A stretch of 64,000 bases of DNA, from positions 186,001 through 250,000 of the forward strand of contig NZ_QEWO01000006.1 in the NCBI RefSeq assembly GCF_003402235.1, read 5' to 3'. A program made the position numbers and the translations under genes. Origin of the DNA: Parahaliea mediterranea. Lineage in GTDB: Bacteria; Pseudomonadota; Gammaproteobacteria; Pseudomonadales; Halieaceae. Positions 4,859 through 6,904 of this stretch are shown here, in pieces. Below the pieces are notes generated by a model. It had not been told where the DNA came from. It did not search any database and saw nothing but the letters and a program-made list of their open reading frames with translations. Every line of letters starts with the position of its first letter. The stretch's first letter is position 1.

Positions 4859-4976
4859 GGCCCTGATGACAGGGCGGCCTTGTGGCTGCCTTGCCGTTTA
4901 CCGGGGGGCTCTGTCTGCCGGCCTGATGGCTGGTGCCTTATCTCTGGCGGCCTCGCGGCCGCTGCATCGCCGCCGC

Positions 4977-5203
4977 CAGGTGAAACCCTTTTGCTCCATT
5001 CCAGGCGTTCGGTGTGCCTTCCTTCGGCGGGTTGTACCTCGTTAGTTGCGGACGGCTTTGGTCTGGGCATAGGTGTGCACAGTATCGGCGGCACGTTGAT
5101 TGTTCTTAAGTTCGGCAGTGCCCCTCGCGATGCAGCGAGACGAGGTAAGTGGAGACCGAGCCCACAGCCGCCGCCTTCCAAGTCCGCAAAAGGGTTTCAC
5201 CTG
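4977..5203 (+). mobile_element. MITE-like element, copy A, with 18-bp perfect terminal inverted repeats
   Basis: A 227-bp unit that begins CAGGTGAAACCCTTTTGC and ends with its exact reverse complement. A second internal inverted repeat, TACCTCGT...ACGAGGTA, is nested inside. No transposase is encoded. A diverged second copy of almost the same length lies 204 bases downstream in the opposite orientation; by eye the two are roughly three-quarters identical across the centre. No clear target-site duplication is visible at the ends. It could be a non-autonomous transposable element or a long hairpin-forming intergenic repeat. Confidence 0.7.
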
Positions 5204-5407
5204 TCGACGCCCATGCGGGTACCAGGGGCAGGGGCGTCACTGCGGGCGGAGAGGGTTGACGCTGCGGGTTAAGTGGCCTTTGGGCTGCCTACGCTTCGAC
5301 AGCGCCATAGCTTCGCTTTCACACCCAATCCACCCCGATTCCCTCAGCCCCCACAAAAACCAAAACCATGTGACACTGCATCGCCTACCCGACGCGTTGC
5401 CGGTGAA

Positions 5408-5635
5408 CAGGTGAGCTCTTTTACGGACTTGGAGGGCGTCGGATGCGAACTCGATCCCAGCTTACCTCGTCTCCAGCCACCGCGAAGGGCACTACCGAAC
5501 TTCAGAATGATCAACGTGCCAGCAATCCTGTGCACTCAGGCGCCACAACCAAAGCCGGCTGCAACTAACGAGGTAAAAAACAATAAAAGGAACGCGCACC
5601 GCATGCGCCCGCAATGGAGTAAAAGCGCTCACCTG
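5408..5635 (-). mobile_element. MITE-like element, copy B, inverted relative to copy A
   Basis: A 228-bp unit whose ends are CAGGTGAGCTCTTTTAC and the reverse complement of CAGGTGAGCGCTTTTAC, a 17-bp terminal inverted repeat with one mismatch. Its reverse complement aligns end to end with copy A. Shared blocks include TCCATT, ACCTCGTTAGTTGC, GGCACGTTGAT, AAGTTCGG, GACGAGGTAAG and CCAAGTCCG. The nested TACCTCGT/ACGAGGTA repeat is also kept. Several terminal-repeat positions differ from copy A on both arms so that pairing is preserved. No transposase and no clear target-site duplication are seen. Confidence 0.7.
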
Positions 5636-5752
5636 ATCGCCGGCCACGCAGCGGCCCAGCGGGCCGCCACCGCCAACACCCCCAAGCCACCTTGACGCCA
5701 CCCACACCACACCGCTACCGTGCCCCAACCCCACCCAGCGGCACACCCCACC

Positions 5753-6904
5753 ATGCCCACCACCGAACAGCAGGTCATTCGCCAACTCAGCGCACTGGTC
5801 GGCACGCCCAGTGTGAGCTCCACCGACCCCGGCTGGGACCAGGGCAATCGCGCGGTAGTGGAACAGCTCGCCCAGTGGCTCGCCAACATGGGTTTTGCCA
5901 CGCAGATCCTCAACGTCAATGACGATGGCAGCAAAGCCAATCTCGTCGCCACCCTCGGCAGTGGCCCGGGCGGGCTGGTGCTGGCCGGGCATACGGATAC
6001 GGTGCCGTTTGACGAGGGCCGCTGGCAGAGTGACCCGCTGCGGCTGAGCGAGCGCGAGGGCCGGCTGTATGGCCTTGGCAGTACGGACATGAAGGGGTTT
6101 TTCCCCCTGGCGATGGCCGCGGCCCGGGGCTTTTTGCACAAGCCCCTGCGCGAGCCGCTGATTATTCTGGCCACGGCCGATGAAGAAAGCTCGATGGACG
6201 GCGCCCGGGCGCTGGCGGCGGCGGGCTGGCCGAAGGCGCGCGCGGCAATTATCGGCGAGCCGACCGGACTGGCCCCGGTGCGCATGCACAAGGGCATTAT
6301 GATGGAGTCCATTCGCATCACCGGGCGCGCGGGGCACTCCTCCAACCCGGCCCTTGGCAACAGCGCCATGGATGCGATGCACGCGGTGATGGGGGAGTTG
6401 ATCCGCTTTCGTGGCGAACTGGGCCAGCGCTATGCCAACCCGGCTTTTGAGGTAGCCGTCCCCACGCTCAACCTTGGCTGCCTGCACGGGGGCGACAGCC
6501 CCAACCGCATCTGTGGCCAGAGCGAGCTACATATTGACCTGCGCATGACGCCCAACGGCAGCTGGCAGGCGGTGCGCCAGGAGCTGGAGCAGCGCCTGGC
6601 GGGCCTTGCCGCCCAGCGGGACATTGCCATCGACCTGGCGCCACTGGTGCAGCCGGTGCCCCCCTTCGAGCAGGGCGCCGACAGCGAGCTGGTGCGGGTG
6701 GCCGAGCGCCTGACCGGCCACAGCGCCCAGGCGGTGGCCTTTGCCACCGAGGCGCCGTTCCTGCAACAGCTGGGCATGGAGACCATTGTGATGGGCCCGG
6801 GCTCCATCGACCGCGCCCACCAGCCCGACGAATACCTGGAGCTGGACCAGCTGCGCCCCTGCATTGCGCTGCTGGAGCAGTGCATCGCCCACTACTGCCT
6901 GTAA
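5753..6904 (+). CDS. argE: Acetylornithine deacetylase
   Basis: Hydrolyses N2-acetylornithine to ornithine and acetate in cytosolic arginine biosynthesis (M20 zinc peptidase fold). The 383-residue protein keeps the dinuclear-metal ligands and catalytic residues: AGHTDTVPF (His80, Asp82), GLGSTDMKGFF (Asp112) and the general-base region TADEESSMDG (Glu144/145). GEPTGL and the dimerisation-domain motif GRAGHSSNP follow. I chose ATG 5753 over an in-frame GTG at 5720 because the extra eleven residues (proline-rich) have no counterpart in ArgE. The gene ends inside the tail of the convergent antiporter gene (13-base overlap). argA lies beyond that, so two arginine genes flank the antiporter, as in the equivalent Pseudomonas neighbourhood. 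Confidence 0.9.
   Translation: MPTTEQQVIRQLSALVGTPSVSSTDPGWDQGNRAVVEQLAQWLANMGFATQILNVNDDGSKANLVATLGSGPGGLVLAGHTDTVPFDEGRWQSDPLRLSEREGRLYGLGSTDMKGFFPLAMAAARGFLHKPLREPLIILATADEESSMDGARALAAAGWPKARAAIIGEPTGLAPVRMHKGIMMESIRITGRAGHSSNPALGNSAMDAMHAVMGELIRFRGELGQRYANPAFEVAVPTLNLGCLHGGDSPNRICGQSELHIDLRMTPNGSWQAVRQELEQRLAGLAAQRDIAIDLAPLVQPVPPFEQGADSELVRVAERLTGHSAQAVAFATEAPFLQQLGMETIVMGPGSIDRAHQPDEYLELDQLRPCIALLEQCIAHYCL

Follow-up and report, generated by a model that had tools for sequence, protein, structure and literature searches.

ERIC, YPAL and NEMIS are named families of bacterial stem-loop repeats, and rRNA operons, like other concertedly evolving loci, are dispersed copies that keep their positions and are more alike within a genome than between genomes. 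Bacterial repeats of the MITE or stem-loop kind are described in PMC2267715 as short non-coding sequences with terminal inverted repeats that can be folded as RNA. REP dimers (REPINs) are described in PMC3116915 and PMC3733652 as intergenic inverted pairs with a spacer, with predicted hairpins and without an internal transposase gene; according to PMC3733652, a REP measures 20-40 bp and bears a tag, GTAG or CGTC, a family numbers from tens to thousands of members, and dimer spacers are mostly of 20-100 bp.

The window analyzed here, a stretch of 64,000 nucleotides from the 5.09-Mb genome of Parahaliea mediterranea (the host, G000), holds one member of a genuine and clearly delimited family of composite inverted elements that is restricted to its lineage and that we call A/B after its two units. 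An earlier note had described the units as two MITE-like elements. Like MITEs, A/B has terminal inverted repeats, dispersed copies and element-free sites in relatives, and to that extent the description stands; the units are halves of one doublet, however, not two independent MITEs. Unlike MITEs, the element is an inverted doublet in every complete copy, is homogenized, and shows no target duplication, and its position, which in MITEs differs between close relatives, is the same at all six sites in two species, each represented by one genome. Like REPINs, the A/B doublet is an intergenic inverted pair with a spacer and predicted folds, without a transposase gene; unlike REPINs, its units measure ~227 bp rather than 20-40 bp, there are six doublets, the A and B matches lie 192-311 bp apart, and the Pfam model detects no Y1 (RAYT-type) transposase in the host. 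Unlike rRNA operons, A/B is without a known product, and its copies still differ by ~3-16% within one genome.

Architecture of the doublet

The doublet is a composite of ~720 bp in which unit A is followed by a spacer and by unit B, an inverted A, with GC-rich hairpins at the ends (Table 1). It occupies ~4947-5667 of the window, taking in the two units of the earlier note, whose boundaries and terminal inverted repeats we confirmed, and adding the outer hairpins. Units A and B align end to end in opposite orientation (75% identity, E = 2.6e-35), and their likeness is therefore not due to chance. The six host doublets can be aligned with one another along their length, save for gaps in the spacer, the middle of which has no blastn match in P. 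aestuarii. In support of the left outer hairpin, the sequence GCCGCTGCATCGCCGCC occurs exactly (0 mismatches) six times in the host genome, once per doublet, and a pattern search placed GCGGCC-N-GGCCGC-type hairpins at both ends of 5/6 host doublets, the left end of L033 deviating.

Table 1. Positions of the features of the A/B doublet, of outer-end repeats and of the second repeat family, with the gene neighbors of other A/B loci. Positions without a locus handle are those of the window.
Feature	Position	Strand	Description
Left outer hairpin	4947-4962		GCGGCC-TCGC-GGCCGC, then TGCATCGCC
Unit A	4977-5203	+	227 bp, 18-bp perfect terminal inverted repeat
Least-diverged window of A	5105-5129	+	region of the apical hairpin, including AAGTTCGG; columns 132-156 of the alignment
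Second conserved block of A	5166-5190	+	AGCCGCCGCCTTCCAAGTCCGCAAA, alignment columns 193-217
Spacer	5204-5407		mostly alignable across the six host copies; length varies
Unit B	5408-5635	-	228 bp; related to A (75% identity) in the opposite orientation; terminal inverted repeat of 17 bp with one mismatch
Least-diverged window of B	5481-5505	-	alignment columns 132-156
Second conserved block of B	5420-5444	-	alignment columns 193-217
Right outer hairpin	5651-5667		GCGGCC-CAGCG-GGCCGC
P. aestuarii outer-end repeats	L036:5593-5667, L037:5763-5837, L040:4802-4895, L041:5271 onward		
Second family	L101:1164-1473, L103:1424-1704, L111-L150		core with TACATCCATGTA and GGCATCCATGCC hairpins
L030 neighbors (Pfam)			aldehyde dehydrogenase, peroxiredoxin
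L031 neighbor (Pfam)			AraC-type regulator
L032 neighbors (Pfam)			APH-family and hexapeptide proteins
L033 neighbors (Pfam)			methyltransferase, HAD hydrolase
L034 neighbors (Pfam)			histidinol dehydrogenase, trypsin-PDZ protease

We rejected the outer hairpin as a dispersed REP: with ≤2 mismatches, matches to GCGGCCGCTGCRTCGCC are about as frequent as those to the reversed-pattern control (45 versus 46 in the host, 45 versus 42 in P. aestuarii S2-26, which is G001, 20 versus 24 in the third Parahaliea genome, G002, and 20 versus 15 in G019, a genome of another genus). Exact matches to GCGGCCGCTGCRTCGCC number 4 in the host and 4 in P. aestuarii, every one at a doublet. A coding sequence was likewise rejected, as gaps of 1 and 2 bases separate the copies and open reading frames across the units are not kept. 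The nested TACCTCGT/ACGAGGTA repeat to which the earlier note drew attention does not hold up as a conserved feature, being exact in 8/12 host units and 0/11 P. aestuarii units; of its 8 pairs, 6 are broken in one copy or another, and pairing holds in 77% of its cells.

The flanks show local repetition of their own. On the left (A-sense) flank of the host loci L031 and L034, short tandem repeats TTTTCGCTCTGGYC adjoin the left outer hairpin. Several P. aestuarii loci carry a partial second copy of the doublet's outer end next to that end, with the hairpin GCAGCGGCCGCAAGGCCGC and, in some cases, GGAATRGAGYAAAAG (Table 1).

Copies, shared sites and element-free relatives

A search of the host genome with unit A returned 12 matches, all of which fall in six short doublets, with A followed by B on the opposite strand. 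The further copies that the earlier note had anticipated were thus found by blastn in the host, and also in the sister genome of P. aestuarii, which holds 11 units arranged as five doublets and a lone B. All six P. aestuarii loci are orthologous to the six of the host (6/6, flanking matches ~78-90% identical), the inverted A...B orientation is found in 11/11 complete copies of the two species, and neither species, at one genome each, has a private copy. Across the two species 23/24 units survive, the A half being missing at the P. aestuarii pit-argE locus; we read this loss as a probable deletion, the left boundary running straight into the spacer end.

The gene context of the six host sites is convergent at three, same-strand at three and divergent at none. 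The neighbors of the window doublet look like genes for a phosphate transporter and an acetylornithine deacetylase; Table 1 gives the neighbors at the other loci. The host loci look grouped on the chromosome, with contigs that are unordered.

Using one flank of each locus as the query against relatives, we located five of the six sites in G002 (the flank query for the L031 site had no match) and 4/6 in G019; in G012, G013 and G014 the flanks were matched in part, with 3 matches each. Three of the G002 sites have 23, 78 and 130 bases between alignable neighbors versus 813, 844 and 887 in the host, and the four G019 sites have 16-99 bases. The other two G002 sites measure 475 and 497 bases and hold a different repeat doublet, that of the second family described below. 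From the presence of the same neighboring genes without the element in G002 and G019, we infer that the insertions are ancient, and the simplest history would place all six in the common ancestor of the host and P. aestuarii. Independent insertion at the same six sites would fit the identity pattern too, but needs a shared target, and none was found.

The L034 site of G002 carries a single GCGGCC-TCAC-GGCCGC hairpin (L104:3742-3757), like the outer hairpins of the doublets; the other GCGGCC-type hairpins in the 51 kb of G002 examined all lie inside the second repeat family. It may mark a favored target, or it may be what a lost element left behind; because it stands there, G002 may have lost the element at this site.

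Element-free sites were one of two features that the earlier note had proposed to look for; the other, target duplications, was found at none of 6 loci. The longest word common to the two 45-base flanks of a locus is 3-4 bp, compared with 2-5 bp between different loci (30 pairs), and a decayed target duplication may have existed, the insertions being old. The transposase search, which covered the Y1 family (PF01797), gave no match in the host or in G002 and one in P. aestuarii, a RAYT/IS200-like gene at L110 (G001:C22:168731-169054); a RAYT-type mobilizer in the host is rejected for want of a PF01797 match. With one genome per species, neither lineage appears to show any sign of present movement.

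Blastn with unit A matched 2/140 family genomes. A covariance model of the 118-position core, a kind of search also put forward in the earlier note, recovered the two species and, among the family genomes, weak matches in G033 (E = 0.02) and G088 (E = 0.08) that are taken as noise; in 390 order genomes it found the same two species only. Both model searches were run with stricter filters, at the cost of weak matches. Convincing relatives beyond the host and P. aestuarii were found in none of 138 family and 388 order genomes. A 22-base core pattern was found among genome contigs in P. aestuarii only, host records having perhaps been left out, and nowhere in viral contigs, and the unit sequences had no match among plasmids and phages. 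No title or abstract returned by searches of the open-licence literature was about these Parahaliea elements.

Concerted evolution of the copies

On the alignment of 23 units, mean identities within the host are 90.3% (A-A) and 92.4% (B-B), and within P. aestuarii 91.5% and 91.5%. Between the species, orthologous A units are 75.9% identical (n = 5) versus 76.1% for non-orthologous ones (n = 25), and orthologous B units 73.9% (n = 6) versus 73.8% (n = 30); orthologous units are no closer than non-orthologous ones, and position therefore carries no signal. In P. aestuarii, A and B resemble each other (80-82%) more than either resembles the corresponding unit of the host, and the unit tree separates the species with a bootstrap support of 98. 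These comparisons show concerted evolution, by which the copies appear to have been homogenized within each species. Four-gamete incompatibility affects 40-41% of informative site pairs and is lower among neighboring sites than in permuted data (P = 0.013 and 0.007), a mosaic signal of the kind that gene conversion predicts.

A single long A-against-B hairpin under selection found no support. The A and B units of one doublet show no mutual covariation (199/720 and 100/120 permutations are as good) and are no more alike than units of different doublets. The hint of such a hairpin had come from two doublets, L030 and L031, where A and B have matching bases in their variable middle parts.

Fold, constraint and competing explanations

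Five helices scored across the alignment are paired in 93.4% of 782 cells, and the cells changed on both sides number 29, compared with 10.4 ± 3.3 in shuffled data (0/500) and 0-3 in slid structures. Counted by pair, those with a double change number 4 versus 3.5 in shuffled data (283/500), and further pair types number 8 versus 10.7, fewer than in the shuffles (500/500 at least as high). The compensatory changes can be traced to about four events, each passed on to an entire group of copies: pair 17-214 splits A from B, 27-203 marks host A, and 38-194 and 41-191 mark host B. A direct comparison of the terminal stems bore out the compensating differences reported in the earlier note, and pairing is indeed kept through changes on both sides, on the strength of these ~4 events, each inherited by many copies. 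The conserved ends expected there are also present, all 23 units (23/23) having terminal inverted repeats with 0-3 mismatches or a one-base bulge. The alignment puts B's outermost terminal stem in the wrong place; compared directly, the stem is present in all 23 units, in four sequence versions and within the same limits of mismatch. On either strand, both window units fold more stably than their shuffled versions (z -3.0 to -4.2), and over the 23 units the mean z is -3.46 and -3.05 for the two strands (25 shuffles each), which differ little in this respect, single units ranging from -0.4 to -7.7. Selection on the fold appears moderately supported.

Divergence along the unit is very uneven, with 2% in columns 132-156, a 25-column window, and 46% in columns 30-54 (column-shuffle P = 0.0008 and 0.05, respectively), a pattern that we would not expect of neutral homogenization alone. 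On a slight balance of probability, we favor the reading that A/B is a composite fold-back doublet, formerly mobile and now resident, whose copies gene conversion homogenizes and whose folded form is the reason for its retention. The common ancestor would have received a non-autonomous mobile element at six intergenic sites, and the element would later have lost its mobility; RecA-type gene conversion among the copies, A with B included, would keep them alike; and the units would be retained for a folded single-stranded form, most likely RNA upon transcription, that is useful or recognized by a host protein. Past mobility we infer from the distribution only, and action as RNA is putative; the shared sites, the likeness of copies within each species and the preserved folds suggest that the family is kept for a structural role and is not an element that still moves.

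The copies could also be a neutral family of dead MITEs, in which conversion alone keeps the similarity and the compensation arises by template switching between inverted arms, not by selection. According to PMC8794818, template switching can create and maintain perfect stems, and it could be the source of the stems here; the conversion signal is present, and the compensations are common to whole clades. Strongly uneven divergence argues against such a history, as does the survival of all units but one while the intervals between genes and element look largely unalignable among the alignments listed, four of six (all but L031/L038 and L032/L037) and some of these in part. We regard the neutral account as rather improbable.

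In another account, which we consider unlikely, the doublet is read inward from both ends and every unit encodes a structured non-coding RNA of ~227 nt, which would make 12 genes at six loci, kept like rRNA operons. Near-invariant blocks among the 23 units of two species, helices with compensatory changes and the retention of all six positions agree with this, and the A-sense strand is slightly favored by the consensus folding index (0.95 versus 0.92) and by G-U pairs in the apical hairpin (120-146 in 3 copies, 122-143 in 10 copies). This strand preference is weak, however, and some terminal-stem changes would pair on the non-A-sense strand only. No promoter-like site was found in 4860-5760. 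Terminator-like sites number 4, at 3 places, against a shuffled mean of 0.7; they fall within A and B and in the flank to the left, and none is at the inner end of a unit. Rfam gave no match near a gathering score, and two species alone among the genomes searched carry the units. Least of all do we credit the reading that the units act as DNA, as a cruciform or single-stranded hairpin recognized by a host protein for chromosome organization or recombination, for although the terminal repeats are long and often perfect, both strands fold better than shuffles and all complete copies are inverted, there are only six sites in only two species, the least-diverged windows are not the outer stems, and no binding protein is known.

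A second family of inverted doublets

The CATCCATG doublets form a second family in the same genus, unrelated to A/B in sequence by inspection. They have the same one-orientation inverted architecture and structured units as A/B, and differ in a unit of ~90 nt, with the core GGACNCGCYGTGAATACATCCATGTASGCTC, and in a variable complementary outer stem; they occur in G002 and in P. aestuarii. We sampled 20/29 places in G002, 19/19 in P. aestuarii and 1 in the host, and detected both halves at 16/20 of the fetched G002 places (29 found) and 15/19 of those in P. aestuarii, always in the order + then -. By eye, across 40 sequences, the outer stem varies widely and is mostly still complementary. The family occupies two of the five G002 sites examined for the A/B element, and for 5/19 of its P. 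aestuarii places both flanks match those of one of the fetched places in G002.

With ≤1 mismatch, the core pattern hit P. aestuarii 24 times, at 19 places, and the host once; in view of this contrast, the two genomes do turn over other repeats, and the retention of A/B is not a general property of repeats here. With ≤2 mismatches, the core is found in 94/381 order genomes. The string TACATCCATGTA appeared in the open-licence literature in one unrelated paper only. On the opposite strand the loops of this family read AUGGAU, a likeness, as we presume, to the GGA hairpins bound by CsrA/RsmA.

Implications

A bolder proposal, which we think quite unlikely, would make these doublets a bacterial locus of a new kind, in which genes for structured RNAs stand in pairs and face inward, in 12 copies at six fixed loci, of mobile-doublet origin and homogenized by conversion between inverted partners and between loci. 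The CATCCATG doublets would then be an unrelated analogue able to occupy the same sites, and the inverted doublet of folded units would be a functional arrangement that recurs across this order.

The usual view of intergenic repeats is that they are passive or selfish. Here the same few copies hold their places in two marine species, change together in each genome and preserve their folds, which makes their function directly testable by deletion. Our results suggest that concerted evolution in bacteria can extend to dispersed non-coding repeats of ~700 bp.
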